A stretch of 64,000 nucleotides of DNA from Methanoculleus formosensis. Its GTDB lineage: Archaea > Halobacteriota > Methanomicrobia > Methanomicrobiales > Methanoculleaceae. This document shows, piece by piece, positions 43,035-61,827 of this stretch. The notes beneath the pieces were generated by a model. The model ran no database searches. It saw nothing but the letters and a program-made list of their open reading frames with translations, and was not told where the DNA came from. How positions within the stretch are numbered: the stretch's first letter is position 1; each line of letters begins with the position of its first letter. The stretch is taken from the NCBI RefSeq assembly GCF_025384765.1, contig NZ_VHLL01000002.1, forward strand, positions 310,001 to 374,000, read 5' to 3'. Both the position numbers and the translations under genes were made by a program.

Positions 43035-43108
43035 GCCCCTGTAGCTCAGACTGGGAGAGCGCCAGACTGAAGATCTGGTTGTCCCCGGTTCAAATCCGGG
43101 CGGGGGCA
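43035..43108 (+). tRNA. tRNA-Phe (anticodon GAA)
   Basis: 74-nt tRNA. Acceptor GCCCCTG/CGGGGGC, anticodon stem CCAGA/TCTGG with loop CTGAAGA and anticodon GAA at 43069-43071, T-loop GGTTCAAATCC. TATTTATTA about 35 bases upstream is a likely TATA box. The sequence turns AT-rich directly after it, as expected for an integration site of a mobile element. Confidence 0.97.
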
Positions 43109-43647
43109 TATTTTAACCTCTGTTTCAATTCCTGAGCCCGCATTTTTGCCGTTTTTGCCTCTCGCGCATCCCAACCTACCCTCCTGCGGCAGGGCCTAAT
43201 CCGGGCCCACAACCCGGATCTGAGATTGTCGATAATTCCCCAGTAGTGGAAACAAACCGTTTTTCCGTGAGGAAATGGGAATCCCGGGGAATAGAGCGTA
43301 ACAAATCGTAACGAACCAGTTTTGTCCGGTTCCCAACGATTCTAAACCGAACGTGGGTATGTCGCCGCAACTAGGCGGGCGCCCGAAAAGTAAAATTTAT
43401 ATGCAAGTTGTTCAAAAAACCACCTTTAATTTGATGTGTTAATATTCCAAACGTAAACCGTGTTTTCAACACCTCCTGTGACAATAGAGCGATTAATAGC
43501 ATTAAATTTATGCGTAATAACTGTTGCAGAATTCACGAAGGTGACGACAGAGAAAAGAATCTGCACGTGCATTTTTTTTGGCAATCTATTGACGGTTTCG
43601 GGATTGATACTGTTTTGAGGGTTTAAAAAAACACAGGCAAATTATAT
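43109..43647. other. AT-rich gene-free left end of the integrated element
   Basis: About 540 bases with no credible gene. Composition drops sharply (23 G/C in the 60 bases 43441-43500, compared with the GC-rich chromosome to the left). It contains several TATA-like blocks (AAATTTATATG near 43399, TTAAATTTATG near 43504, AAATTATATATG at 43639) and a T8 run near 43576. Probably a regulatory or attachment region. Confidence 0.6.
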
Positions 43648-43992
43648 ATGGGGGTGTATCGACACTGTTTTGTAACAAACGCACAGGAGTTGATAGAAAC
43701 GCCAAACACAGCAGAATTTACGCGGTTCCTCTCAGTCGCGGTCGTAGCGGCGATTCTGGGGATTTCCCGCCCGTCTGTTCTGACGCTGGTTCGCGACGGC
43801 GAACTGCCCGGGATCTGGGTCGGTCACCGGGTCAGGATCCCGGCGGCGGGACTAGAAACGTTTTTAATTGCCCAGGGGCTCAAACCGAGCGCAATCTACC
43901 GGGGAACGGGGCAGACCGCCACAGCCAGCCCGTCCCCGGCGACCATCACCAACGCCAGCCGAACGGCCGACGCGGGGGCGATCACCCGTTGA
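43648..43992 (+). CDS. Excisionase-like helix-turn-helix protein
   Basis: 114 residues. Residues 28-75 form an excisionase/MerR-type HTH: VAVVAAILGISRPSVLTLV, DGELPGIWVGHRVRIP and an ending helix ETFLIAQG. The tail is Thr/Ala/Ser-rich and disordered. Such proteins direct integration or excision of mobile elements or regulate them. A TATA box overlaps the ATG, so the true start may be slightly downstream. First gene of the element next to tRNA-Phe; no integrase gene is visible. Confidence 0.65.
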   Translation: MGVYRHCFVTNAQELIETPNTAEFTRFLSVAVVAAILGISRPSVLTLVRDGELPGIWVGHRVRIPAAGLETFLIAQGLKPSAIYRGTGQTATASPSPATITNASRTADAGAITR

Positions 43993-44138
43993 CCGCCGTA
44001 CACCAAAAAACTGTCGAGCGCCGACCGGATCCGATCCGACTGACCCAGGCAGAATTAGGGGCGTTGCCCGAACTGCACCGCCTCGTGGCGCAAATTTACC
44101 TGAACCGGGGTTCTGGAGAGGTTCTTTTAGTAGAATAA
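43989..44138 (+). CDS. Possible small protein overlapping the HTH gene
   Basis: A 49-residue frame with TTG start overlapping the HTH stop (TTGA), ending TAA at 44138. It reads as a plausible helical protein with LTQAELGALPELHRLVAQ and ends EVLLVE. The base pattern fits coding better here than the other frames, but the TTG start and lack of family keep this tentative. Confidence 0.35.
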   Translation: MTAVHQKTVERRPDPIRLTQAELGALPELHRLVAQIYLNRGSGEVLLVE

Positions 44139-44145
44139 CCGTAGT

Positions 44146-44256
44146 ATGAGCACATTTATTAAGGAGGAATTAAAACGTCTCAAATTTGGAAAACGGCCGC
44201 CCTCACCACAGGGCAGCCCAAAACTCAGTTCTCCAGCCCCCCCAGGGCACTGGTAG
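44146..44256 (+). CDS. Possible 36-residue basic peptide
   Basis: ATG 44146 to TAG 44256, starting MSTFIKEELKRLKFGKRPP with a Pro/Ser-rich tail. It lies in series with other small ORFs of the element. It has no recognised family, and could be spurious. Confidence 0.3.
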   Translation: MSTFIKEELKRLKFGKRPPSPQGSPKLSSPAPPGHW

Positions 44257-44333
44257 GTAATAGTAGGGCAGCAACCGTAATAACGTTTCCGGTTTCCGAG
44301 CCGCGCTACGTTGATGCGCGGGCGGGGCGGGCT

Positions 44334-44660
44334 TTGATCAGGTACCTGTCCGATCCCCGGGCAAACGCTGGGACGCCGGGGCTCTGGCGGACGGTCAGCA
44401 ACGACCCGCGGGAACTGATCTCACCGTTCGCCCTAACCCGAATCGAAACTGGGCGGGGGTCTAACGTCGAGATTGCGGCGATCCGCCCCGGGACCGAGGA
44501 CGAGCGGCTCTACGAGGGTGACCTGGACGTCGCCGCAACCCTCCTCTGGCGGGCCGGGCAGCGGTTCGGGTGCCGGGCGGAGCGAAAAACGCTTTACTGG
44601 GCGTTGTTTGAGTTTTGCGCCCTGGCCCGGCGGCAGGCGGCGGCGCGGGGGGAGCTGTGA
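44334..44660 (+). CDS. Unknown protein of the integrated element
   Basis: At least 108 residues from a TTG start. The frame remains open upstream to about 44247 without an ATG or GTG, and this extra part (ITFPVSEPRYVDARAGRA) looks coding, so the true start is uncertain. The C-terminal half has LWRAGQRFGCRAERKTLYWALFEFCALARRQ, a helical basic region. No known family. It directly precedes the iteron block. Confidence 0.5.
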   Translation: MIRYLSDPRANAGTPGLWRTVSNDPRELISPFALTRIETGRGSNVEIAAIRPGTEDERLYEGDLDVAATLLWRAGQRFGCRAERKTLYWALFEFCALARRQAAARGEL

Positions 44661-44681
44661 TGGCCCCCCTCACCCATCTTT

Positions 44682-44898
44682 GTAGCTACTGTAGCTACGT
44701 GATTATGGTCCTGCTCTGCTGTAGCTGCTGTAGCTACTGTAGTTACAGTATCAGAGACTCGTTGACTCAGATTGGTGGAGCAACGGGGGCAGTAGCGAGG
44801 GATTTGAGCGGGAGTTTTAGGAGAGATTATATAGGAGAACTCAGGCTCCCTGTATTGTATAGAGACGAAATCCTTTGTAGCTACATGCATGTAGTTAC
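44682..44898 (+). repeat. Iteron-like cluster of GTAGCTAC palindromes
   Basis: Seven copies of the 8-bp palindrome GTAGCTAC or one-base variants start at 44682, 44691, 44721, 44730, 44739, 44877 and 44891. Five are spaced in 9-bp tandem (TGTAGCTAC units). Two more flank ATGCAT just before the next gene. The block surrounds the promoter of the RHH-MCM pair and has the look of a replication origin or a multi-site operator. Confidence 0.8.
44826..44833 (+). promoter_or_regulatory. TATA box for the RHH-MCM pair
   Basis: ATTATATA, about 110 bases upstream of ATG 44941, lies between the two groups of GTAGCTAC sites, so a protein bound there would affect this promoter. The leader would carry the last two sites. 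Confidence 0.5.
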
Positions 44899-44940
44899 AA
44901 TAAGATCCGCACTACCTCTTTTCGATGGGGGGTGGGGGTG

Positions 44941-45504
44941 ATGGCTACAGGCAAGTCGGCCGTCCTTCAAGCTCGGTACCCGGAGGATCTCAGGGTGGTT
45001 GGGCGTGCCCTCGGTGTGAACCTGAGCGAGGCGGCTGTACGGGGCGTGGTCCAGGCAATCTGCACTGCAGCCGGTATCGCCGGGCATGATTCGCTATCGC
45101 CTGATCTAGAAATCGCCCTTCTCGCGACCCTACGGTCACGGCGGGACGAGCTCACCTTGGAACTCGAGGAGCTCACCGAGTACATTACTCGGGTCGAAGG
45201 ACTTGAGGAGGCTCGAAAACAACAGGTAGCCGAGCGACAAAACGAGGCACGGCGCCAGCAGGAACGGGTGGCAACGTATGAGGCCATTGCGACGGCTAAG
45301 TGTCAATTCGACGCCGCGCTAAACTCTCTCTCAGATCAGACCCTCTCAGCACTTCGGGCATCCCTTGAGACTGATAATCTCGGAGACGTGGCTGCGACGG
45401 TGGCAGAGGATCTGGTGGCCCGGAACGGCCTGTCGATGCCTCCTGGTGCGGATCCCGCTCAGTGGCTCGTAGATCACCTGGTCGCTATGAGGGGGTCCGC
45501 ATGA
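44941..45504 (+). CDS. RHH-like/coiled-coil protein upstream of MCM
   Basis: 187 residues. The N-terminus (VLQARYPEDLRVVGRALG, then NLSEAAVRGVVQAI) has the strand-helix-helix pattern of a ribbon-helix-helix DNA-binding domain. Residues 60-115 form a long charged coiled coil, followed by a helical C-terminus. It overlaps the MCM start by four bases (ATGA) and follows the iteron block, so it is a candidate origin-binding or autoregulatory protein of the element. The role is inferred; the family is not recognised. Confidence 0.6.
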   Translation: MATGKSAVLQARYPEDLRVVGRALGVNLSEAAVRGVVQAICTAAGIAGHDSLSPDLEIALLATLRSRRDELTLELEELTEYITRVEGLEEARKQQVAERQNEARRQQERVATYEAIATAKCQFDAALNSLSDQTLSALRASLETDNLGDVAATVAEDLVARNGLSMPPGADPAQWLVDHLVAMRGSA

Positions 45505-47537
45505 CAGAGCCCACAGCGACCATCACTGATCGCGTTGGTGATTGGGCCGGGGTTCTCTCCCGGAAGTACACGATTGAGCTGGCTGAACTGAAGCGGCTCT
45601 GGCCGCACCAGCACTCCTTTGTCATTGACACCGACCGGCTGGCTCATTCTGGGGCGCTCGGCCTAACCCTCCTCACGGAACTGGAGAGGTCCCCGGATCG
45701 GAGTATCAGTGACATTAGGGATGCTCTGATTCAGCGGTGTCAGTATGAAGTGAGTTCCGGGCGGATTGACCCCGCACTCATAGAGGTCCGGCCCGCGAAC
45801 CACAACTACACCACCCCTATAGGCCGGATCCGGTCTGGGCACGCAAACACGCTGGTTTCACTTGATGGCATCATCCGGAGGGCTACGCAACCCATCGCGC
45901 ACATGACCCGGGCGGTATATCGGTGCCGCTCCTGTGGAGCCCTCACCGACCCGATCCCACAGGGTCGGCGCCAGGCCGAGGAGCCCGATATTTGCCCCAG
46001 GTGCGAGCGGAAGGCGAGAATGGACCTCATAAAAGAGAGGTCATCGTTCATCGACTACCAACGGCTACAACTAGCTGAGAACCCAGAGGGTGCCTCGTCT
46101 CAACCACAGGCCATCGATGTGGATGTGGTCGGGGACGTCGTCGGGGCGGTTCAGCCTGGGGACCGGGTTAGGATAACCGGGATACTCCGGACCCAACAGG
46201 AGAGGGCTGGAGTTCAAAATCTCCCGGACTTCAAGTATTATCTCGAATGCCTTTCGATTCGGACGGAGGAATTATCGTTTGAGGAGGTACGGATCGATGA
46301 GGCGGACGAGCGGAAGATCCGGGAACTGGCCGCACAGCCGAACGTATGTCACGTAGTGGGGCGATCGATAAGCCCCTCGGTGTATGGTCATGAGAGAGTG
46401 AAACGGGCGATCGGCCTTCAGCTGTTTGGAGGGGTGCGGAAGACGATGGCAGACGGAACCCCTCGGAGAGGGGACGTGCATGTCCTTCTGGTAGGGGATC
46501 CGGGTATTGCCAAATCAGTTCTTCTCCGGTATGCGGTGAAGGTCGCGCCCCGTGGGATCTACACGAGCGGTCAGGGAACCACAAAGGCGGGTCTCACCGC
46601 AGCAGCCGTGAAGGATGACTTCAGCGACGGCCGATGGATGTTGGAGGCTGGCGCCCTGGTGCTCGCCGACACCGGGATGGCCGCAGTGGACGAACTCGAC
46701 AAAATGAGCGACACCGACCGATCCGGGCTGCATGAAGCGATGGAGCAACAGTCTGTGAGCTTGGCCAAGGCAGGGATAACCGCCACCCTCCGGTCTCGGT
46801 GCGCCCTCCTCGGAGCAGCGAACCCGAAAAAAGGGAGATTTGATATGTTCGTTCCTCTCGCGGAACAGATCAACATGCCCCCGTCACTCCTCTCACGCTT
46901 CGACCTCATCTTCGTCCTGCAGGACGTAGCTGACCCGGAGGCCGATGCAAGGTTGTCACGGCACCTCCTTGGCAACCACCGGCAGCAGGCAGCAGACGCT
47001 AATGAGGATGTGATCCCTCCGGAGCTCCTCCGCAAGTGGGTCAAAATGGGAAGGGATCTCAACCCGGTTCTCACAGATGCGGCAGAGGAGGCTATCCATG
47101 CCTTCTACCTCGGTATGCGAAGTGGGGCGCAACGGAAGGGGGCCCCCCTGCCGATAACCCCTCGGCAGGAAGAGGGTGTGATCCGGCTGGCTGAAGGAGC
47201 AGCTCGGATGCGGCTCAGCGAAACGGTGTCTGCAGATGATGTTCGCGTAGCTATGACTTTAATGGATTCGTGCCTCCGCGACGTTGCCTACGACGCCGAA
47301 ACTGGGCAGTTCGATATCGACCGGCTGTATTCGGGCGCGAGTCAAAAGGATCGAGGCCTTGAGCGCGAGATCGAGGCCATGATCCAAGATGCAGAGGGTA
47401 AGATGAGAGTGAGTGCAATCTTTGAGTCGTTCATGGGTCGCGGTCACGGCCTCGACCAAATTGAGCGCAATCTGGCCCGGATGGAAAGATCTGGGTACTC
47501 TATTGCAAACGGAATGGTGTACCGAAACGAGAACTGA
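45501..47537 (+). CDS. mcm: MCM-family replicative helicase of the integrated element
   Basis: 678-residue AAA+ hexameric DNA helicase. N-terminal domain with zinc ribbon CRSC/CPRC (C142, C145, C165, C168) and OB-fold hairpin, then Walker A GDPGIAKS (332-339), Walker B AVDELD (395-400), arginine finger SRFD (465-468), and a C-terminal winged-helix domain (about 615-678). All catalytic motifs are intact. Its location in a foreign-looking element next to tRNA-Phe suggests that it replicates the element rather than the chromosome. Codon use is less GC-biased than the chromosome to the left. Confidence 0.93.
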   Translation: MTEPTATITDRVGDWAGVLSRKYTIELAELKRLWPHQHSFVIDTDRLAHSGALGLTLLTELERSPDRSISDIRDALIQRCQYEVSSGRIDPALIEVRPANHNYTTPIGRIRSGHANTLVSLDGIIRRATQPIAHMTRAVYRCRSCGALTDPIPQGRRQAEEPDICPRCERKARMDLIKERSSFIDYQRLQLAENPEGASSQPQAIDVDVVGDVVGAVQPGDRVRITGILRTQQERAGVQNLPDFKYYLECLSIRTEELSFEEVRIDEADERKIRELAAQPNVCHVVGRSISPSVYGHERVKRAIGLQLFGGVRKTMADGTPRRGDVHVLLVGDPGIAKSVLLRYAVKVAPRGIYTSGQGTTKAGLTAAAVKDDFSDGRWMLEAGALVLADTGMAAVDELDKMSDTDRSGLHEAMEQQSVSLAKAGITATLRSRCALLGAANPKKGRFDMFVPLAEQINMPPSLLSRFDLIFVLQDVADPEADARLSRHLLGNHRQQAADANEDVIPPELLRKWVKMGRDLNPVLTDAAEEAIHAFYLGMRSGAQRKGAPLPITPRQEEGVIRLAEGAARMRLSETVSADDVRVAMTLMDSCLRDVAYDAETGQFDIDRLYSGASQKDRGLEREIEAMIQDAEGKMRVSAIFESFMGRGHGLDQIERNLARMERSGYSIANGMVYRNEN

Positions 47538-47724
47538 TCTCAGGGAAGAAGAAGGCGCCATGCCTCTCAAAAACCACCTCTCCCCTGCCTTCCCCAATAT
47601 CAGATAACGGGGGCATCGTTTCAGGATGTCTCGAAAGGTGAAAGTTAGTGTTCACTCATCAAAGACAGGTCATCCGGGGATTAAAATCGCCAGTTTAAAG
47701 CATTGAAGCGATAAGGTGTTTCCT

Positions 47725-48126
47725 ATGGGTAAAAGGAAATATTATTCGCATCCCCATAGTTCGCACCGTGGTGAGTATCAGCCTCACAGTTATCGCCCTC
47801 ACGACCGGCATAAGGATAACCGGCAACCGAAGCAGAACCGGTCAACCCTTACAACAATATACCGAAGATTTGAGCGTTTCTCCTGGCGTCATCCAATTGC
47901 ATCTGTCGGGTTGTACCTATTTGTTGCCCTTGTCCTGTTCCGAATCGCGTTCCTCGACGCCTCGTTCGCGCCTTACACCCACCTTGACGAGATTCGTTTC
48001 TGGGTCGCTGTAATCGCTACGATAATGGTCGGCGTCGCGCTTTTATCAGCCCGTGCCTGGTGGAAACGGAATGTCCCAGACGTCAATATCCGGGGAACCG
48101 CGGACGTTACGTGGAGAAATAGGTAG
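47725..48126 (+). CDS. Small membrane protein with basic N-terminus
   Basis: 133 residues: a His/Arg/Tyr-rich hydrophilic start (MGKRKYYSHPHSSHRGEYQP), then two transmembrane segments (about 60-82 and 92-112) and a short tail. No family is recognised. ATG 47725 is preferred over GTG 47716. It is the last gene of the element before a stretch of hairpins. Confidence 0.55.
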   Translation: MGKRKYYSHPHSSHRGEYQPHSYRPHDRHKDNRQPKQNRSTLTTIYRRFERFSWRHPIASVGLYLFVALVLFRIAFLDASFAPYTHLDEIRFWVAVIATIMVGVALLSARAWWKRNVPDVNIRGTADVTWRNR

Positions 48127-48613
48127 CAAACCCATATTTTTCCAGTTGAATTTTGGAGTTATATCAAAGGAGCCACTGAAAGACGGTCAGAAACTCCGCC
48201 AATCGCGCTGTTCCGTCCACAAATTGCATTCGGTTGGAGTGCCAAAGATGCACCCATCACAACGACCTGTTTTGCTAGGACATAACGATCCGTTCCACAC
48301 AAATGTGGGGATGTCTTTGCCCTCCATTTTTGTGCCTGTGCCTAGTACCATGGTGGGGGATATTCTGTTAATATATTTTAATGTTTTGTATTCTGGGCGG
48401 GGGCGGAGCCCAGATGTCAAGAGTTAGCAGGGGCTCGCGGGGACACGCGGGAGCAGCGAGGCCGCCCCCGGTTTCAATCTCCAGAGGAAATTAGGTTCGC
48501 CTAAACTCAACTCAGATCAAAAGATAATATAGGGCCTGAACATGATATCTGTCTCTTTGCGTATAGTTTCCTAAGGAAATTTGGGGTTATATAAAGGCCC
48601 CACCGAAAGAAGG
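48127..48613. other. Gene-poor stretch with duplicated flank and possible right end of element
   Basis: Contains an imperfect 40-bp direct repeat (48149-48189 and 48577-48616) and a strong hairpin TCTGGGC/GCCCAGA at 48390-48412. CCCCGGTTTCAATC (48466-48479) resembles the tRNA-Phe T-arm. A minus-strand frame at 48187-48420 (77 residues) has no recognised family and may be a relic. Confidence 0.5.
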
Positions 48614-49684
48614 TCAATGACACCAGGCCGAGGCCACAAACGCCGCCAGCATCCCGTCCGCCACATCGGTTCCTCCCTGAGTCTCCAGAGCAAACAGGAT
48701 TGTTCGATCTGTGCGATCGCAATACCATCCTCCAAGATATCCTGCAATATGAACCTCATCTGGAGAGATCTCCTCATACACGGTGTCATACATGATCGGG
48801 ATATAGGTGACCGTGTGTCCGGTATCAAGAGCCCGCGTGTACTTCACACCAACGGCAAGGTTGGAGAATGTGGGATCCTTATTCAGATCGTTGATCCAGG
48901 TTGATAGGGCATCTGAGATCTCTGGGGTTTCTGTGCCCGAATACCACCAAGTAGCCATGATCGATTCGTGGACCCCAGAGTCCTGCACCGTCACCATACC
49001 GTCGTCGTAGGTATTCCAACCCGTTTCCGATTCGTCATCGTAAAGCCAGAGCCCTTTCGGGTACGAAAACGAGATACCATGCTTAGCATACGTATCCGTC
49101 GGGGAGTTTGCAGTTGAGTAGGTGTAATCGGACCATGCGGCAGAGGCCGTTGTGTATGAAGGGGTCTCTCTAGGAGATAGGGTGGGATCCATAACTACAA
49201 ATGCAGCAACGGAAGCAGCAACGAAAACCATTGCGAGGGTCAGGGCCAGCATTCCCAAGATCATCGGAGGATACCCCGGGGTGTCTGGCTTTGGGATCGG
49301 ATCAACCTTGAGGATATGCCGTTTGACTAGTTTTTTTATCCAGACCCAGAATAGAATGCCGATCACCGAGAAGATCAGGATCCCAAAACATTCGCCCATG
49401 AACCTTGCGGGATTGGTCGCGGGGAGCGATCCTACCGCTGCAATGACCAGGGAGGGGATGGTCCAAAATGCAATTGCCGCAAGCTCCGCTCCGGACTCCC
49501 AGAAGCGGAGGACATTTAAGAGGTAGGCCACGTAGAGCCCACAAAAGCAGAGGAGCAACAGGGCAAGCCCAAGACCCCCGATCACCTCTGATCCGGCAAA
49601 ACTTCCGATAGTGGCTATCAGGATTCCCGCCCCGCCTAGAACTAGCGACCCCAGGGCAACATTCTTTGGAGAGAATTGTGTCAT
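48614..49684 (-). CDS. Membrane protein with extracellular PsbP-like domain
   Basis: 356 residues: four hydrophobic segments near residues 8-30, 35-55, 68-88 and 98-118, a fifth near 145-168, then an extracellular domain of about 185 residues with AKHGISFSYPKGLWLYDD and VTVQDSGVHES, the look of a PsbP-like lipoprotein fold. Unknown function. It stands alone between the integrated element and the defence island. Its stop codon is part of a duplicated 40-bp segment. Confidence 0.6.
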   Translation of the reverse strand: MTQFSPKNVALGSLVLGGAGILIATIGSFAGSEVIGGLGLALLLLCFCGLYVAYLLNVLRFWESGAELAAIAFWTIPSLVIAAVGSLPATNPARFMGECFGILIFSVIGILFWVWIKKLVKRHILKVDPIPKPDTPGYPPMILGMLALTLAMVFVAASVAAFVVMDPTLSPRETPSYTTASAAWSDYTYSTANSPTDTYAKHGISFSYPKGLWLYDDESETGWNTYDDGMVTVQDSGVHESIMATWWYSGTETPEISDALSTWINDLNKDPTFSNLAVGVKYTRALDTGHTVTYIPIMYDTVYEEISPDEVHIAGYLGGWYCDRTDRTILFALETQGGTDVADGMLAAFVASAWCH

Positions 49685-50227
49685 TTAATTGTGCGAGGTA
49701 TTAATGTATTATATATTTTGTGTTTTGCATATATTCGTGTAAAGAGCGCTATATTGATAGTATAACTCAAAAATCCTCACCCTCCGCAGAGAGAGTTTGT
49801 GGTATCTTACTCATACCTGGCAGGGTGTCTACGGTGGGTGGCAGCGGGTGCCCAGAGTTGGTCTGGATATACCTTGCCCTGCAACGCACCTCAGTGCAGG
49901 CGAAACCCCCTCGATCCTATTCCTTGGTCGATTCTAAAAAGATCCGCGGCCATATCCCCATAGCGAGGCCACCCCTCGGCCGCATTTCCTGCTCCACAGG
50001 TAGAAGACAATCAATGAGCATCTGGGAGAGCGTCAGCAGATAAGAAGGTGCAAAAATCTTCCGGTCTACTGCCCAGAGCGGAAATCGTTGCCAGCCTCCC
50101 ACCTTCCAATGTATTGGGCCACAGGTTTGCTCTCAGAAACTATTGTTCTGCATATGCAACATAATTCACTCCAGGGAAGATTCGAAAGACTCTTCTTACA
50201 CAAGTTGAACCTTCCATCTGTTGTATT
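49685..50227. other. Gene-free stretch left of the defence island
   Basis: About 540 bases. The 49720-49770 part is AT-rich with TATA-like blocks. A minus-strand frame at 49917-50102 (61 residues, MGGWQRFPLWAVDRK) looks partly coding but has no family I recognise and could be a transposase relic. Confidence 0.4.
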
Positions 50228-53200
50228 ATGGCAGACATGCATGCGAATGACATTTTCAGCATAATAAAACCACGGGCAATCATAAAGGAGGGATCTCTTT
50301 TCCCCGAAGACGTTGAAGTTCTGACCGTAAGGTCGATTGGGGTATCCCTGAAGATAGAGGGCAAGGGTCGCAATTCCGGGCAGTCTTATACACGGTTTCT
50401 CAGCCCCCAACTCTTCGGCCAGATCGAGGTGTTCCCGGAGCATGAATCATTCAATGGTGACGCACACAAATTTCGGCTTGGAATTGAAGCACGGCGGCTG
50501 GGTCTTGCTTACGAATATGATCCATTTTTTTCCCTCTCAATAGCACGGATCGATCCTCTCCCCCACCAGCTGGAAGCAGTCTATGACTATTTCCTGAAGT
50601 TGCCCCGCATACGATTCCTCCTTGCCGATGATCCGGGTGCAGGAAAGACGATCATGGCAGGTCTGCTCATCAAGGAGCTGAAGATCCGGGGTCTTGTCAA
50701 GCGTATCTTGATCGTCACGCCCGCGAATCTCACCTTCCAGTGGATGCGCGAACTCAAGGAAAAATTCCGGGAGGATTTCAGTGTCGTGCGAGGTGAGATC
50801 CTCCGTGCGGCGTATGGATCGAATCCCTGGGATGAGCGAGATCAGGTTGTCACCTCGCTTCCCTGGATTGCGCGCATTGAAGATGCACAGCAGAGTTTGT
50901 TGAAGTCAAAGCGGTGGGATCTCATCATCGTGGACGAGGCACACAAAATGAGTGCCTCCTCAGAAGACAACAAAACGCTTGCCTACCGGATTGGGGAGGA
51001 ACTCTCCAAGATGACGGATCACTACCTGCTCATGACAGCGACGCCTCATAAAGGGGACAAAGAGAACTTCCGTCTCTTCCTTTCACTGCTCGATAAGGAC
51101 GTTTATGGGGACATTGAGAGCCTGGAGCGGGCGGTAAAGACACGGGAAGCACCGTTCTATCTCAGAAGAGTGAAAGAAGCGCTTGTCAACTTCCCGGATC
51201 CGGAGACGGGGAAAGTTACCAGTCTCTTCAGGAAGCGGAATGTGTACACCGTTCCCTTTGATATCGATGCCGATGAGATCGAATTCTACGACCATCTGAC
51301 TGCATACGTTGAGAAGCAATCCGTCAGGGCAGCGGCTGACGGTACCATCCGTGGCAGGGCGCTTGGGTTTACGATGGCAATGCTCCAGCGCCGTTTTGCC
51401 TCAAGCATCTATGCGGTACGCTGCACACTTGAGCGGATGTGCAACAAGCGCGAAGAAATCCTCCGTGATCCTGAAGCATACCGGAAGAAGGAGATCGACC
51501 GGCGTCTCCAGCGAGAACTGGACAAGCGTTTTGGTGGTGAAGAGGAGGTTATAGCCGATCTTTATGATGATGAACGGGAGCGGTTGCTGCTTGAATTCGA
51601 GGAGGCAGTCATCTCGTACAGGCCGGAGGACCTTCGGGAAGAGATATCTGACCTCTCCCTGCTTGTCGTAATGGCCAAACGCCTCGAAGAACGAGAAATC
51701 GAGACCAAGCTCGTCAAGCTCAAGGAGCAGCTGACCACCGAGGGCATCTTCACCGATCCCAAGATGAAGTTGCTCATCTTCACCGAGCACAAGGACACGC
51801 TGGTGTATCTGACCGAGAAGCTCCGTTCATGGGGGCTTACGGTCACGCAGATCCACGGCGGCATGAAGATCGGCGACCGCAATACGCCGGGCTCCCGGTT
51901 GTGCGCGGAGAAGGAGTTCCGGGACGATTGCCAGGTGTTGGTCGCGACCGAGGCGGCGGGCGAGGGTATCAACCTCCAGTTCTGCTGGTTTATGATCAAC
52001 TATGATATCCCCTGGAACCCGGTCCGGCTCGAGCAGCGGATGGGGCGTATTCACCGTTACGGACAGGAGAAGGACTGTCTGATTTACAACTTCGTGGCTC
52101 AGAACACCCGGGAGGGCAGGGTGATGGATAAACTCTTCACCCGGATCAGCCTGATCGAGGACGATCTCGACCCCGAGAGGACTGGGAAGATCTTTAACGT
52201 ACTCGGCGATGTCTTCCCGGCAAACCAGATCGAGCGCAAGCTCCGGGAGATGTATGCCCAGAGCCTTGAGGTACAGGAGATCATCTCCTGGATCACTGAC
52301 GAAACTGAGGCAGAGCGGTTCAAGCATATCACAAGTTCGACACTCGAAGGACTCGCCAAGACCCATCTCAACCTCTCTGCCATCATCGGCAAGCGGGAGG
52401 AGGCAAAAGAGCGCCGCCTTGTCCCTGAAGTGGTTGCAGATTTCTTTACCGCCGGCGGGAAGCTCTGCGGCCTCAGTCTACGGGAGATGAAGAACCCATC
52501 GGGGATATTCCGTCTGGGGCAGGTCCCGCGCCTGCTCGTCCCCATCGGCGAGACGCTCGCACCACAGTTCGGGACGCTGGGGCATGAGTACAAGGAGATC
52601 TGTTTCGACAAGGAGGTGCTCAAGGCCTATCCGAATATTGAGTGGGTCACTCCCGGCCACCCACTCTTCGAGACCGTCCGCCACTTTGTGCTCCGCGAGA
52701 CGGAGAACGATCTTCGTTCCGGAGCGGTCTTCTACGATCTGCACCGTGACATTCCGGCAGTCCTTGACGTCTTCTCGGCGGCGGTCACCGACGGTCTGAG
52801 CAATACGATGCACGAGCGTCTCTTCGTCCTGGAGCACGACGGGGGCGAGCATGCAAAAGTCCGCCAGCCGACGGTGTTCCTGGATGTTATCCCGGCAGAT
52901 GAACCCGTCGCAGTTCCCGATGTCCCGCTGCCCGACTACGAGGAGGTGGAAGCCCTGCTCTATGAGCGTGCCCTCATCCCCTTTCAGGAGGAGGTAGCGA
53001 ACGAACGCAGGCGTGAGGTGGCGATCATTCGCGCTCACCTGGAGACAAGCCTGCAGGAGCTGCTCATGCGGGAGAACTCCCGTAACATGGATCTGCACAA
53101 CCGGGAGCGTGCAGGGGACTCCGACCCGACGCTCCAGGCGCAGATTGCGAACTCCGATCGTCGTCTCGACGAACTCAATCGCCGCCTGAACGTCCGCAGA

Positions 53201-53716
53201 GCCGAACTTTCCAAGGAAGAAAGCCTCACGATCGGTGCCATCCGGCACTACGGGCGGGCGTGGGTGCTCCCCCATCCCGAGCGTAACGCGAACGGAATCC
53301 GGCGCATGCGCCGCGACGATGCGATCGAGCGGATTGCCGTCGATGCCGTGATCGCCTATGAGAATGCGCGTGGCTATGAGGTGGAGAGCGTTGAGGATCA
53401 GAACTGCGGCTATGACCTGAAATCCCGGAGGTTCGATCCCGACAATCCCGATACCGCGGTGGATCTCCGGTTTATCGAGGTGAAGGGGCGATCCGGCGTG
53501 GACGACGTCTTCCTCTCCGTCAATGAGTACAGGACGGCGGTGCGGCAGAAGGAGGACTACTGGCTCTACGTCGTCTACAACTGCGCGACACCCAACCCCG
53601 AGGTCTACCCGATCCGCAATCCCGCGACGATGGGATGGGAGCCGGTGGTGAAGGTGGAGCACTACCATGCGAACGCACGGGACATTCTGGGTGCAAGTGA
53701 AAAACTAAAGAAATAA
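50228..53716 (+). CDS. SNF2-type helicase with DUF3883 nuclease-like domain (DISARM DrmD-like)
   Basis: 1162-residue DNA translocase. Walker A DDPGAGKT (134-141), DEAH (236-239), TATPHKGD, the second RecA domain with VATEAAGEGINLQF and HRYGQEKD, then a long helical region and a C-terminal DUF3883 domain with GYDLKSRR and FIEVKGRSG, a PD-(D/E)xK-like pattern. The architecture is that of DrmD of class 1 DISARM and related anti-phage systems that pair a helicase with a DNA methylase. It likely remodels or scans incoming DNA. First gene of the defence island. Confidence 0.88.
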   Translation: MADMHANDIFSIIKPRAIIKEGSLFPEDVEVLTVRSIGVSLKIEGKGRNSGQSYTRFLSPQLFGQIEVFPEHESFNGDAHKFRLGIEARRLGLAYEYDPFFSLSIARIDPLPHQLEAVYDYFLKLPRIRFLLADDPGAGKTIMAGLLIKELKIRGLVKRILIVTPANLTFQWMRELKEKFREDFSVVRGEILRAAYGSNPWDERDQVVTSLPWIARIEDAQQSLLKSKRWDLIIVDEAHKMSASSEDNKTLAYRIGEELSKMTDHYLLMTATPHKGDKENFRLFLSLLDKDVYGDIESLERAVKTREAPFYLRRVKEALVNFPDPETGKVTSLFRKRNVYTVPFDIDADEIEFYDHLTAYVEKQSVRAAADGTIRGRALGFTMAMLQRRFASSIYAVRCTLERMCNKREEILRDPEAYRKKEIDRRLQRELDKRFGGEEEVIADLYDDERERLLLEFEEAVISYRPEDLREEISDLSLLVVMAKRLEEREIETKLVKLKEQLTTEGIFTDPKMKLLIFTEHKDTLVYLTEKLRSWGLTVTQIHGGMKIGDRNTPGSRLCAEKEFRDDCQVLVATEAAGEGINLQFCWFMINYDIPWNPVRLEQRMGRIHRYGQEKDCLIYNFVAQNTREGRVMDKLFTRISLIEDDLDPERTGKIFNVLGDVFPANQIERKLREMYAQSLEVQEIISWITDETEAERFKHITSSTLEGLAKTHLNLSAIIGKREEAKERRLVPEVVADFFTAGGKLCGLSLREMKNPSGIFRLGQVPRLLVPIGETLAPQFGTLGHEYKEICFDKEVLKAYPNIEWVTPGHPLFETVRHFVLRETENDLRSGAVFYDLHRDIPAVLDVFSAAVTDGLSNTMHERLFVLEHDGGEHAKVRQPTVFLDVIPADEPVAVPDVPLPDYEEVEALLYERALIPFQEEVANERRREVAIIRAHLETSLQELLMRENSRNMDLHNRERAGDSDPTLQAQIANSDRRLDELNRRLNVRRAELSKEESLTIGAIRHYGRAWVLPHPERNANGIRRMRRDDAIERIAVDAVIAYENARGYEVESVEDQNCGYDLKSRRFDPDNPDTAVDLRFIEVKGRSGVDDVFLSVNEYRTAVRQKEDYWLYVVYNCATPNPEVYPIRNPATMGWEPVVKVEHYHANARDILGASEKLKK

Positions 53717-53721
53717 TTACA

Positions 53722-54066
53722 GACCTCCACTCGTCCATGCTCAAGCAGGATCCGATAGATCGTATTGTGGGGAATATGCATCCTATACTCCTCTTCGATC
53801 TTCTTCTCGAGATGTGTGGGGCCGAGAGAATACTGGTCCTGAGCGGCCAGGACGAGAGTTTCAGTCTCGTGCGGGATCTGAGCAGGCTTTCTTCCCGGCG
53901 CTTGTGGATAGGGATACAAGCCGGTCTGCCGATACGCTGCGATAATCTGGTAGATTCTTTGCCTGCTGACGTGATGATAGTCCGCAAGGTCACGAATAGG
54001 CCGCCCTCTCTTCCACTGACGAGTGATACTTCGGATATCCCGGTCGGAGAGTTTGCTCACAGCCAT
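53722..54066 (-). pseudogene. IS481-like transposase, N-terminal fragment
   Basis: About 115 residues from MAVSKLSDRDIRSITRQWKR with HTH (PIRDLADYHHVSRQRIYQII), PGRKPA linker and HLEKKIEEEYRMHIPHNTIY, the N-terminal DNA-binding part of an archaeal IS481-type transposase. The catalytic DDE domain is missing; homology stops next to the end of the helicase gene. It is a decayed insertion that split the island. Confidence 0.75.
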
Positions 54067-54230
54067 ATATAAATCTGGTGTCAAATGATTTCGGGGTACT
54101 ACACCTCAAATTCCAATCAGAAAACCATAACAAGGAAATGATATCATCTGGATTATGAGAATTGAAATATCGTGAGCATCAATTCATCATCGATCACCGA
54201 AGAAATGTCTGGAAAAGGATGCCTGTAGTT

Positions 54231-54275
54231 GTGAGTTCTCACGACGATGTCGTCGTTTGGGGGATAAATAATATC
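54231..54275 (+). promoter_or_regulatory. Palindromic operator and TATA box of the SIR2-STAND gene
   Basis: GTGAGTTCTCAC (54231-54242, perfect inverted repeat) is followed by the near-palindrome ACGACGATGTCGTCGT (54241-54256) and the TATA box GGATAAATAATATC (54262-54275). The TATA is 30-35 bases from GTG 54301, fitting a leaderless transcript. The palindromes could bind a repressor. Confidence 0.55.
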
Positions 54276-54300
54276 ACGGGTGTCTAGGGGGGCGGATGCC

Positions 54301-57300
54301 GTGCTTATTTCTGAAGATCTGAAAGCGCGAATTGACATCGTCAGCCGGCATCTGTCCCTCGGTGCGGTAGTTGTGGTCGGAGCGGGACTCTCGATATCCA
54401 ACCGGTTTCCGGACACTGCAGGGCTCACGTCGCTGCTGTGGGATGCGCTCGACTTTGACATGGCCACCCGCAAAGAATTCGCTCAAGCGCTTGGACAAGC
54501 GGATGCCTCAGCGAAAGAGTTAGTTGGGGATAATAAGATAAATATCCTGGCAGCGTGGGCTGCGATTGCGTCCAGCATCCCGGCTAGAGCGAGATTCCAA
54601 AAGCAGTTCGCCGCCTTGGACGCACAACGGAGCGCCCAGCCGTCACGCGCTCACGAGGCTCTGGCCTGTCTAATTCACGCGGGAGTTGTTGAGTGTGTCG
54701 TCTCGTTGAACTGGGATACAGCCCTCGAAAGCGCGTACAAGAGGCTGTACGGAACCTCGCTCCCGGAAAACCTTCTGTTCAAACCACATGGAGATGCCGC
54801 CAAGCCCGACGATCCGTGGATACTCCCTCACGAGCCCGGTCTTATCCCACCAGAGGTCACTACTAAGGTGACACTCCTCGCTAGCGAACACGCCCGCACA
54901 TTACTCGTCATCGGATTCTCGGGGAGTGACCGTGTGGTCGTCGACGAGCTCATCAAACCACTGGATAGATCGTGGCGGACCGTGCGGGTTGGCCCCAACG
55001 CGACAGGATTGGATGATCTCACAGCCGGAGCGGAAACCGTGATCCCGCTACTCGCCGAACCATACGAGAATAGGGAGGATCACTCGTCTTGGTGCGCTAT
55101 GTCTTTCTCAGGTCGGCGTGACATCGAGGCTGCGCTCCGGGGAGAGCGCCTCGGGCCGCAAGACATATTCTCCTGTCCTGAGTTGGACGAGGTGGAAGTG
55201 CTCGCCCGATCACTCCGCATGGATAAGGCGGTCGTCCTCAATGGTCAGACCGGCTCGGGCAAATCGATCACTGCATACCAAGCCTTATACCGCCTGACCC
55301 GAGAAGGCTTCGAGATACTGCGTTTACGTGATAACGCCCGCACATGTAGTCTGCGCACGTTGTTGAATGACCTTGCGCAGTTTCCCCACAAGAAAGTGCT
55401 CCTTGTGGACGATGCCCAGGATATGTCCCCGGACACTGTGCGCGAGCTCGCCGAAGCCGCCGCCGCCGATTTACTCATCCTCATTGTCGGCATCGACCAT
55501 GTAGCAGGGGGTGTGCGGACGGTGCATCTCAGCGCACGCCTGGCAGTAGTCCGTCTTTCCCGGTTCGTCCGCGAGGAACGCGCGACTCTTTTCCCCCGCA
55601 TCCGCGATCTCGACAACAGTGTTGGCACTTTCCCTAACGACGTGTTCTTCGACCGTCGCATCGACGTTGCCGAGCGGCAGCTCACTTCCTGGCAGTTCTT
55701 CTACATCCTCACAGGTGGTTGGCGACGCGTCCGTCGCGATGCCATCGAACTGCGCGACAACAACCGTGCTGACGTGGCTCTCCTGGCAATCGCAGTCGCA
55801 CAAATCGCCGGAGTTGATGCCGGTGTTAAGCGGGACGAGTTGTTGGCGATGCTGAACGTACTCGGAAGGGACAATGTGTGGCTGGACAGCAGTCTGGACA
55901 CGCTACGCGCCAGAAAGCTCGTGACTGAGGCTGACGGTCGGCTGCGGTGCACCCACCTGGAAGCCGCCCTTCACATGGTCGCCTGGATGCTCCATCCACC
56001 TGAATCTCATTGCACGCTATCAAGCCCACGAGTCGAGATTCCACCCATCCCCTCGGCAACAGGCTCAGTAAAATCGGAACAAACCGCTGTCCCCTCGCCA
56101 AAAAAACCCCGGCAGGCTCCGCTCCTCTCCAAAGAGGAGATGGATGAGGATCGTGGCACAGCCTGCGCTCTTATAGAACTCGCCCTCGACTCTCCTAACA
56201 CACCCCTGCGAGGCTGCACGTGGCTCTCCGGCCAGAGGTTTATCGAGGACACTCACTGGATTCTCGTCTCTAAAGGCGTCCTGGCACCAGATCGTTACGA
56301 TAGGCTTGCCCATCGCGCTCTCTTAACCCCAACCGATGGCGATCTGGCTGCCGCCGCTCAACTCCTCTCAGAGATTGTCAAATATTCGTGCAGTTCCGTG
56401 ATGGACACGGTGAAAGCGCACGCGTCCCGCCTTTCGGACTGGTACGGTGTCATTTCACCGGAGAATGGTTGGGCGCTTGGCGATCTAGCCAATACCATAC
56501 ACAATGTCGACAAGAGCTTTGCGGCCGAACTTGCCGGATACACAGATCCCCAACGACTCGCGAATCTCGTCCTCGACGGGGGGTGGCCGCATATCTACTC
56601 GACGTCTCACGCCCTTGATCGGATATGTACCGCCGACGGTATACCCGTCCGTGGGGCGGTTGCTGCGGAGTTAGATGAAGATGCGTATAAGCATATGCTC
56701 TCAACCGGCAACCCGAACCTGAGTGACGCGGCCCTTCTCATCGAAAACATTGCCTCGGCGGATCCCGACCTGTCCCTCCGTCTTTTTGAGTATGCAGCCC
56801 CGATGCTTGCTCACCAATTCGTCGACAACCCAGTACGCCAATGGAGCGAGATATCGGAATGTGTAATGTTCGTGCTGGGCTATGCACCGGATTTCTTACG
56901 CGTCCGTAAACGCCCTCTAGCTAACTGCCGGAGAGTCGCACAGTCGTTCATCAGAGCGCTCGACCGTAATAGGGTCGCCGAAACGATCGCCGGTCCGAGC
57001 GACCAGTGGGCGCAGATGAACTTCCACGAATTCATCCGTTTCCTATCTGAAGCCGATCCCACTACTTTTGCGGATATCGTCGACCGCGTTGATATGACCG
57101 CATTTGAGAAGTCCCTCCGATCTCATCCTGAGAAACCCTGCAAAACAGCGTTATACGTATGCGCCTGTCTGTGGGAGAACAGGCCCGACCCAATCCATGA
57201 CCTTCTCGACCGGCTCGAACCTGACCTTGCTCATCTGGATTCGCTTTTCGTATATATGGCGCCCGACGTAGCATGCCGTGCCCTGCTGCGCGGGTTGCCA

Positions 57301-57735
57301 CTCGATCTCGAACTTGACCACGACCGCTGGGGCTGGGCTGCAAGTGTTCTCGCGAGGCTCCACCAGCACAACCCCCAGGTGGCACGAGAGGTCGCCCACG
57401 CTAATCGCGAAGGAATTAAGGCAGGACTTATTATTAGTAAAAAGTCCGATCCATTAGAAGGGCTGAATAAGTGGGTCTCCGAGTGCGATCGGATCGCCCC
57501 CGGACTGATCGACTCCGTCATCAGCGACCTTCCGAAAGGGGCGGTTACTGCGTGGGGGGGCGTTATCACGCGATCAGTGAAGCACCGCCGCACCCGACGC
57601 AAGGAGATCGCCCCGCTCGTGCATCGAGCAGCACGCGCGAGCGGACACGTTCAGATGGAGGCCAAAGCGCTGCTAGTGAGGTTCCCAGCTCTCGCACACG
57701 AAGGACCTACCGGCACGACCGCACCCTCACCTTGA
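54301..57735 (+). CDS. SIR2-STAND anti-phage-type protein
   Basis: 1144 residues. Residues 1-260 are a SIR2 NADase-like domain: GAGLS (27-31), catalytic-type SLNWD (135-139), KPHGD with H163 (161-165) and IGFSGSD (204-210). Residues 290-480 are a STAND/AAA NTPase: GQTGSGKS (315-322) and LLVDDAQ (367-373). The remaining 650 residues are helical and probably sense a target. Family knowledge: such proteins deplete NAD+ upon phage sensing and kill the infected cell. GTG 54301 is preferred to GTG 54280 from the TATA position. The 3' end runs into IS66 sequence. Confidence 0.85.
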   Translation: MLISEDLKARIDIVSRHLSLGAVVVVGAGLSISNRFPDTAGLTSLLWDALDFDMATRKEFAQALGQADASAKELVGDNKINILAAWAAIASSIPARARFQKQFAALDAQRSAQPSRAHEALACLIHAGVVECVVSLNWDTALESAYKRLYGTSLPENLLFKPHGDAAKPDDPWILPHEPGLIPPEVTTKVTLLASEHARTLLVIGFSGSDRVVVDELIKPLDRSWRTVRVGPNATGLDDLTAGAETVIPLLAEPYENREDHSSWCAMSFSGRRDIEAALRGERLGPQDIFSCPELDEVEVLARSLRMDKAVVLNGQTGSGKSITAYQALYRLTREGFEILRLRDNARTCSLRTLLNDLAQFPHKKVLLVDDAQDMSPDTVRELAEAAAADLLILIVGIDHVAGGVRTVHLSARLAVVRLSRFVREERATLFPRIRDLDNSVGTFPNDVFFDRRIDVAERQLTSWQFFYILTGGWRRVRRDAIELRDNNRADVALLAIAVAQIAGVDAGVKRDELLAMLNVLGRDNVWLDSSLDTLRARKLVTEADGRLRCTHLEAALHMVAWMLHPPESHCTLSSPRVEIPPIPSATGSVKSEQTAVPSPKKPRQAPLLSKEEMDEDRGTACALIELALDSPNTPLRGCTWLSGQRFIEDTHWILVSKGVLAPDRYDRLAHRALLTPTDGDLAAAAQLLSEIVKYSCSSVMDTVKAHASRLSDWYGVISPENGWALGDLANTIHNVDKSFAAELAGYTDPQRLANLVLDGGWPHIYSTSHALDRICTADGIPVRGAVAAELDEDAYKHMLSTGNPNLSDAALLIENIASADPDLSLRLFEYAAPMLAHQFVDNPVRQWSEISECVMFVLGYAPDFLRVRKRPLANCRRVAQSFIRALDRNRVAETIAGPSDQWAQMNFHEFIRFLSEADPTTFADIVDRVDMTAFEKSLRSHPEKPCKTALYVCACLWENRPDPIHDLLDRLEPDLAHLDSLFVYMAPDVACRALLRGLPLDLELDHDRWGWAASVLARLHQHNPQVAREVAHANREGIKAGLIISKKSDPLEGLNKWVSECDRIAPGLIDSVISDLPKGAVTAWGGVITRSVKHRRTRRKEIAPLVHRAARASGHVQMEAKALLVRFPALAHEGPTGTTAPSP

Positions 57736-57976
57736 GCGAGAAATCCTGGCACTCTTGAGAGATTTCACCATGCCCTTCACCAATAATCAGGCCGAACGCG
57801 ATCTCCGAATGATGAAACTGCAGCAGAAGATCTCCGGAACATTCCGGAGTGAAGAAGGCGCTCGGAACTTCCGTAGGGTCAGAGGATTCATAGCAACCGT
57901 CAAGAAGCACGACCGCCCGGTATTATCGGAACTGGGGGAGGGTATTCGAAGGGATGCCCTTCGTCCCGAAGACGGC
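57731..57976 (+). pseudogene. IS66-family transposase, C-terminal fragment
   Basis: About 80 residues from LEREILALLRDFTMPF, with NNQAERDLRMMKLQQKISG and RNFRRVRGFIATVKK, the conserved C-terminal end of IS66 transposases. The rest is missing. Homology begins in the last bases of the SIR2-STAND gene in another frame, so the insertion or deletion joined the two. The frame runs on to 58189, but that part has no homology to a transposase. Confidence 0.8.
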
Positions 57977-58011
57977 TCACCTGATACACTGAACAGTTAC
58001 GAAATAATTGC

Positions 58012-58764
58012 CTATTCTTTATTTTTTATAGGTGGATTCTCACGGCAATCCTTGAAATACTCGCGTATTGTCGACCTGAGATCATCACGAGACCGTTTGA
58101 ATTCTTTGTATGCAAGGAAGATGCGTGCAGCATCACCGAGCGCACGATGCGGTTTGATCTTTGATTCATATGTTTTTTGGATGGAATAGTCAAAATTTTT
58201 CGATCTGAAGCAATTGTTGCTGACGTCAATGCCCAGAGCATACGAAACCCGGTCGAGTGACAAGAGTTTTTCCATCTTCAGTGCATCCTTGATTTTATCC
58301 TGGATGTCAAGGAACTGGAGATTTTTCGTATCGAATTTTGCCCGTGCGATGGCCGCCATCTCCATTCGTTTAGAGAAAAACACCATCGTCTGGATATGGT
58401 GCTCCCTGGTGAGCTTCGTAAGATAGGTATTCAGGTCAGCGTATGCAGACCACGTGACCTCAAGTGCAGGTTGGAGATCCTCCATTTCGAGGGTGTACTC
58501 CTTATCGTAGGGTAACTGGTACTGTTCCTTTGCGACGTTTGCGCAGGTGGTGGTGGATCCTGCCGTTCGTTTAAGGTCGTCGGTAGTATTTTTCCACATT
58601 TCAACGACGATATCTTTCTTGATCTTCCTTTGAGACGTTGATATCGAATCTTTTTGGCGATCATAGAGCAGGACGCCGACTTCAATCGGCATATAGATGA
58701 GTTTCTTCGTTCCATAGACGTGACCGAACTCCATATCGATGAATGCCATTTCCTGGACAACCAT
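58012..58764 (-). CDS. Putative DEDDh-type exonuclease
   Basis: 250 residues with an RNase H-like exonuclease pattern: FIDMEFG (D10, E12) near the start and HRALGDA (H206, D211) near the end, the DxE and HxxxxD motifs of DEDDh 3'-5' exonucleases. A candidate middle Asp is D145 or D153. The middle is long and Lys/Glu-rich and differs from known polymerase-type proofreading domains. It is on the opposite strand to the rest of the island, between the IS66 fragment and the methylase. Family placement is an inference from motifs. Confidence 0.6.
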   Translation of the reverse strand: MVVQEMAFIDMEFGHVYGTKKLIYMPIEVGVLLYDRQKDSISTSQRKIKKDIVVEMWKNTTDDLKRTAGSTTTCANVAKEQYQLPYDKEYTLEMEDLQPALEVTWSAYADLNTYLTKLTREHHIQTMVFFSKRMEMAAIARAKFDTKNLQFLDIQDKIKDALKMEKLLSLDRVSYALGIDVSNNCFRSKNFDYSIQKTYESKIKPHRALGDAARIFLAYKEFKRSRDDLRSTIREYFKDCRENPPIKNKE

Positions 58765-58874
58765 TTTAGCGCCAGGGGAGTTATCAGGGCTCCGTTTACA
58801 AAAATGAATTCATTTGATTGTAGCAATCATGGTAATTCACAGCAGTTATAAGCTGACGCACACATGTTTTTACA

Positions 58875-61757: not shown

Positions 61758-61827
61758 AAATACAAATCAGTCATTTTATGGAACGATTTATACGATCTCT
61801 ATCGTAACAAGAAAGAGGGAATGTTGG

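Follow-up and report, generated by a model that had tools for sequence, protein, structure and literature searches.

MCMs in mobile elements were reportedly described by Krupovic et al. in 2010, and integrated archaeal plasmids that carry an MCM of their own are already known, including the pT26-2 family, pTN3, and TKV1. Plasmids of the pT26-2 family, found in Thermococcales and Methanococcales (e.g., pMEFER01), are integrated at tRNA genes and encode tyrosine integrases of differing types, MCM is their commonest putative Rep protein, and these MCMs were recruited from hosts (PMC6972569). The element described in this article is a new relative of such plasmids. It resembles the pT26-2 family in its integration at a tRNA gene, in the differing tyrosine integrases carried by related elements, and in the possession of its own MCM, and is unlike it in host order. 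When 25 of the 34 proteins of pMEFER01 were compared by tblastn with this element and its sister (see below), MCM was the sole match to either, a result compatible with distant homology; thus, the pT26-2 seven-gene core was not found among the proteins compared. An MCM is likewise carried by pTN3, pMETHO01, haloarchaeal plasmids, and tailed viruses; among the matches listed, plasmid and viral MCMs are ~30–39% identical to that of the element, and no counterpart of the coiled-coil protein that the two elements share was found in plasmids. Free Methanosarcina plasmids (32–58 kb) have a homologue of the short recombinase in common with the element, and no Methanosarcina plasmid appears in the listed 20 of 26 MCM matches. 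The cargo genes of the element belong to Hma, a candidate defence system (PMC8565338) that also occurs in an archaeal provirus (PMC11705971).

The window, i.e., the whole stretch of 64,000 nucleotides that was analysed, corresponds to positions 310001–374000 of contig C2 of the 2.65-Mb source genome (G000), and the locus designated L056 runs past its end. About two thirds of the element lies in the window and the remainder past the window end. Very probably, the element is an integrative plasmid of 29.4 kb from a species of Methanoculleus, predicted to be able to replicate with its own MCM; its features are collected in the table.

Features of the integrated element (window coordinates unless a locus or contig is named)
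Feature	Coordinates	Strand	Remarks
tRNA-Phe (GAA), target gene	43035..43108	+	ARAGORN; Rfam tRNA 66.5 bits
attL core, 22 nt	43087..43108	+	identical attR at extended coordinate 72447-72468 (G000:C2:382447)
Integrated element	43087..64000 in window, on to 72468		G000:C2:353087-382468; 29,382 bp with both core copies
Excisionase-like HTH_17 protein, 114 aa	43648..43992	+	Pfam E 8.7e-11; PHROG phrog_66 (excisionase) E 2.5e-7
Small ORF, 49 aa	43989..44138	+	TTG start overlaps preceding stop, in both elements; conserved in sister
Small ORF, listed at 108 aa; open frame extends back to 44163	44334..44660	+	conserved in sister; no Pfam match
Repeat block 1: five TGTAGCTAC-type 9-mers, 9-bp steps, two groups	44681..44748	+	
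Repeat block 2: two TGTAG(C/T)TAC units 14 bp apart	44876..44900	+	behind stretch conserved in sister
Coiled-coil protein, 190 aa, putative N-terminal RHH-like DNA-binding part	44932..45504	+	ATG alternative 44941
MCM helicase of 678 aa, additional to the chromosomal MCM	45501..47537	+	Pfam MCM E 5.2e-89; OB, P-loop, lid domains
Hypothetical protein, 136 aa	47716..48126	+	no Pfam or PHROG match
Hypothetical protein	48614..49684	-	hydrophobic N-terminus by eye; Pfam match sub-threshold only
HmaA-like SNF2 helicase with NOV_C domain, predicted defence cargo	50228..53716	+	PADLOC HmaA E 2.8e-193; Pfam
STAND-type NTPase-like protein within Hma cluster, 1151 aa	54280..57735	+	Pfam nSTAND matches just below cut-offs
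HmaB-like DNA methylase (DUF1156)	58875..61757	+	PADLOC HmaB E 2.7e-138; Pfam DUF1156
HmaC-like ATPase (DUF499)	61828..64000, on to 64791	+	PADLOC HmaC E 4.4e-89; Pfam DUF499; frame open from 61627
Short tyrosine recombinase, catalytic domain only	L056:4795-5397 = extended window 66795-67397		
Tyrosine integrase, 427-472 aa by start choice	L056:9114-10532		beside attR; Phage_integrase E 3e-23

The boundaries of the element are defined by its target. The genome has exactly two copies of the 3′ end of the tRNA-Phe gene, GGTTCAAATCCGGGCGG, which lie on the same strand of C2 at a spacing of 29,360 bp; attL and attR are identical over 22 nt, and the tRNA gene has been kept whole despite the insertion at its 3′ end, directly after which G+C drops from ~0.65 to 0.42. 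The corresponding site is empty in genome G008, where tRNA-Phe abuts the sequence found 3′ of attR in G000, with the same core, an exact junction, and flanks that are 88–95% identical. At the level of sequence, these observations show insertion at the tRNA-Phe 3′ end by site-specific recombination over the 22-nt core. Further tRNA-Phe loci were located through the neighbouring gene, which is present in 32 of 35 genomes; 30 of these loci were fetched, and the left end of the element, and with it this gene order, is present in G000 alone, three of the other 29 loci (L041, L045, and L047) being uninformative because their contigs end ~100 nt or less from the tRNA.

Much of this agrees with the earlier note, which had proposed an element inserted at tRNA-Phe and equipped with an MCM of its own, AT-rich from the end of the tRNA gene onward and beginning with an excisionase-like HTH: the att repeats, the empty site, and the presence of a second MCM bear out its main claim, and the profile matches bear out the HTH assignment. 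Neither outcome that the note had named as contradicting it was observed: the window MCM is not the sole MCM and does not group with the chromosomal copies of the genus, and the gene order does not recur at this site in the relatives' loci fetched. Where that note erred was in extent and in the integrase. It had placed the end of the element near 48500, when attR lies 29.4 kb downstream of tRNA-Phe, and, seeing no integrase, had suggested a remnant or an element mobilised in trans; the 29,382-bp element in fact carries an intact tyrosine integrase past the window end, directly inside attR and oriented away from it into the element.

From tRNA-Phe, the gene order is excisionase-like HTH, 49-aa ORF, 108-aa ORF, repeat block, coiled-coil protein, and MCM, followed by two hypothetical genes, HmaA, a STAND-type gene, HmaB, and HmaC; past the window end come the short tyrosine recombinase (200 aa), PEGA, CAP, Cys-rich, and TPR proteins, and then the integrase. 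HmaA, HmaB, and HmaC are all present according to PADLOC, as in the known system, with other genes interspersed, here a STAND-type gene between HmaA and HmaB; the defence function is predicted from the genes. HmaB and HmaC of the sister element are separated by a different gene (L057:6684-8357). A frameshift in HmaC was considered and rejected, the frame being open upstream of the listed start, and an ORF on the opposite strand (61771–62847) was dropped as antisense to HmaC. The short recombinase is common to G000, G005, and G016, and 12 of 231 genomes in the order encode it; its homologues on five free Methanosarcina plasmids are full-length and 30–33% identical, and no match was obtained among the viral contigs searched. 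It may be a plasmid dimer resolvase.

A sister element of 37,364 bp is present in G005, sited between secD and a thioredoxin-like gene (names assigned by reading the sequence rather than by profile search). The two sides of this site are adjacent, and the site thus empty, in five of six genomes (G000, G001, G002, G003, and G009), where the secD-side and thioredoxin-side matches overlap by 7–10 bp; the sixth, G006, has only one side within its fetched flank. In G009, the empty junction is letter-exact around a 9-bp core, AGGTTGTTG, which was recognized from comparison with the relatives, no att repeats of at least 18 nt having been found around the element. A tRNA-Leu gene ~16 kb beyond secD had been entertained as the target and was dropped after comparison with the secD region of the relatives. 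The integrase of the sister is of another kind (438 aa) and stands at the opposite end, adjoining the excisionase-like gene. The core genes of both elements occur in the same order, with identities of 48% over 73 aa for the HTH protein, 44% over 59 for ORF49, 47% over 108 for ORF108, 51% for the coiled-coil protein, 80% for MCM, and 79% over 200 aa for the short recombinase. The Hma proteins are only 28–32% identical between the elements and are oriented differently relative to the core; the Hma cargo is therefore not a stable part of the lineage, and its genes would not be inherited cargo in any simple sense. G016 encodes an integrase that is 89% identical, accompanied by a degenerate att copy, and a short recombinase that is 86% identical, at a contig end; it lacks the coiled-coil protein, for which a search of 232 genomes of the order returned two carriers. 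The G016 locus (L217, G016:C52:91500-100242) represents the end of a third related element, truncated where the contig stops; it comprises integrase, a PEGA-like gene, the short recombinase, and a large Ala-rich frame of repetitive sequence.

The repeats lie ahead of the coiled-coil gene. Counted on both strands, such that palindromic sites count twice, TGTAGCTAC has 13 matches with at most one mismatch in the element, all within 44681–44899, and the five that are exact compare with a mean of 0.03 expected from 100 random first-order Markov sequences. Tandem matches number three in the whole genome, all in this block. The iteron-like block of the earlier note is thus real, with short-unit repeats far above chance. 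The repeat of G005, TGTATATAC, has seven exact matches, all between ORF108 and the coiled-coil gene, and 14 with one mismatch in the element, five of them elsewhere. Neither element holds an exact copy of the other's repeat, and the palindromic core differs only in its middle, TGTAGCTACA in G000 having become TGTATATACA in G005. The two units of block 2 are 14 bp apart in both elements; in block 1 the units do not correspond one to one, there being five in G000 and three to four in G005. Before block 2 is a conserved stretch (~44825–44870) that looks promoter-like by eye and in which GTATTGTATAGAGACGA is common to both elements.

The coiled-coil protein has no Pfam match, and single-sequence models, which are weak, give a long helix at residues 57–132 and no strand. 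The stretch QINIRVPQEILDL of its sister copy aligns with the Arc repressor at E 0.43, which is not significant, and the RHH label that the earlier note attached to the protein is accordingly unproven. Arc repressor reads DNA with Gln9, Asn11, and Arg13 of its strand; the putative DNA-reading strand would be AVLQARYP in G000 and TQINIRVP in G005. By alignment columns, identity between the two proteins is 3 of 18 in 1–22, 18 of 51 in 1–55, 18 of 55 in 56–110, and 57 of 80 in 111–190. A repeat layout that is kept while its sequence is changed, together with a protein whose N-terminus has diverged far more than its C-terminus, suggests a natural switch of operator specificity, an argument weakened by the low identity of the middle part, as divergence extends beyond the N-terminus. 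No coiled-coil protein was found in the plasmids searched, and 37 pattern matches on viral contigs yielded none that was confirmed.

A life cycle can be proposed from this arrangement. The excisionase-like HTH protein would help excision, and the excised circle would replicate from the repeat block; the coiled-coil protein, putatively of DNA-binding type, would bind the repeats, repress its own operon, and assist in delivering the co-translated MCM to the origin. As no Orc1/Cdc6 was detected within the element, that of the host may be involved; in both G000 and G005, the contigs with matches to the Orc1/Cdc6 C-terminal domain are never the ones that carry the elements. The short second recombinase would resolve dimers, and the Hma cargo, a predicted defence, would protect the host and hence the element. 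The layout, with its confirmed four-base overlap between mcm and the upstream gene, fits the minimal replication module that the earlier note had read in it; replication itself we infer. That the coiled-coil protein (RHH-type) and the repeats form an origin-recognition pair bringing MCM to the origin in place of Orc1/Cdc6 is a tentative and somewhat unlikely proposal; were it true, the two elements would represent a natural recognition switch that makes them compatible plasmids.

The chances are even that the repeats and the coiled-coil protein are instead an operator with its repressor, or a partition site with the protein that binds it, with host Orc1/Cdc6 loading MCM at an unseen origin, a difference that concerns mechanism only and not the nature of the element. 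The position of block 2 in both elements, directly behind the promoter-like stretch and before the protein gene, is the usual one for an autorepressor site, and host Orc1/Cdc6 genes are present in both genomes; against this, the position of block 1, just after the preceding ORF and ~130 bp ahead of block 2, goes beyond what simple repression would require, and in both elements the coiled-coil gene and mcm share the ATGA overlap.

Integrated elements commonly decay, no circular form was seen, and the MCM could be idle within an inactive remnant. This is improbable for an element whose att cores are identical and in which the integrase, MCM, HmaA, HmaB, and HmaC frames are open. Between the two elements, MCM has a dN of 0.133 and a dS of 1.40 (NG86), which points to purifying selection over that divergence, rather than being a sign of activity after this insertion. 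A provirus is a very improbable reading: MCM helicases are found in archaeal tailed viruses, and phrog_10371 matches the window MCM, but no capsid, portal, terminase, or tail gene was detected (ORFs scanned with Pfam, and six ORFs plus the two recombinases with PHROGs), and the cargo consists of defence and surface-type genes.

The MCM of the integrative plasmid is distinct in sequence from that of the chromosome, which occupies C5:14331-17477 (L002, L003) in a 1099-aa frame split by an intein-like insertion at approximately query residue 430, and to which it is 54% and 49% identical in the two parts. The intein-like split and frame size are the same in many relatives of the genus and absent in some. 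No close copy of the window MCM is present in 33 of the 35 genomes of the genus. In a tree of 50 rows, the MCMs of the two elements pair as sisters (100/100) with a shared stem of 1.66, inside a clade of Methanomicrobiales chromosomal MCMs (98/96) which also takes in a viral-contig pair (L068/L069) on a long branch; the chromosomal MCM of G000 groups with the copies of the genus and the window MCM does not. Removing 15 long or divergent rows (35 rows remaining) gave the same picture, clade support being down to 83/80. The element MCMs sit on a long branch, with a source that can be placed within the order and no more narrowly than that. An AU test did not reject element and genus chromosomal MCMs as one clade (p 0.355), and the element may therefore have taken its MCM from a close ancestor of the host. 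Such capture from a host has precedent in the pT26-2 family (PMC6972569). The least credible reading, that MCM arose by duplication or domestication of a chromosomal gene and lies by chance in an island, could draw on that clade and on the AU test, but the surrounding genes, not MCM alone, recur in G005 at another locus, and both element MCMs share the long stem and lack the intein-like insertion of the chromosomal MCM of G000.

The 80 best of 548 MCM loci on named genome contigs are 43–50% identical, which indicates no further close copy within a set from which records near the source genome may be absent. The viral-contig search with MCM gave 13 loci of 30–44% identity, in three of which (L062–L064) the other core genes were looked for without a match; neither the plasmid nor the viral-contig searches produced a close relative of MCM or of the coiled-coil protein on a free plasmid or virus. 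A literature search, bearing mostly on papers outside subscription, found no report of an MCM-bearing integrated element in Methanoculleus or Methanomicrobiales, which is weak evidence.

The two elements provide Methanomicrobiales with a precisely bounded MCM-bearing integrative plasmid, in two members at two sites with empty sites for both, and bear on the question of MCM recruitment in the absence of a plasmid-encoded Orc1/Cdc6. The paired change in the repeats and the protein N-terminus offers a testable case of diverging plasmid origin or operator recognition in archaea, and this switch is the part of the system worth an experiment. Methanoculleus is common in biogas reactors, and the predicted replication module could be tried as the base of a shuttle vector.

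The tRNA-Phe site itself has a longer history. The conserved flank begins within ~130 bp of tRNA-Phe in many relatives and only 2.7 kb past attR in G000, which points to earlier insertions at this site; the intervening ~2.7 kb (L056:10469-13150) is partly common to G008 and has the appearance of an older insertion.
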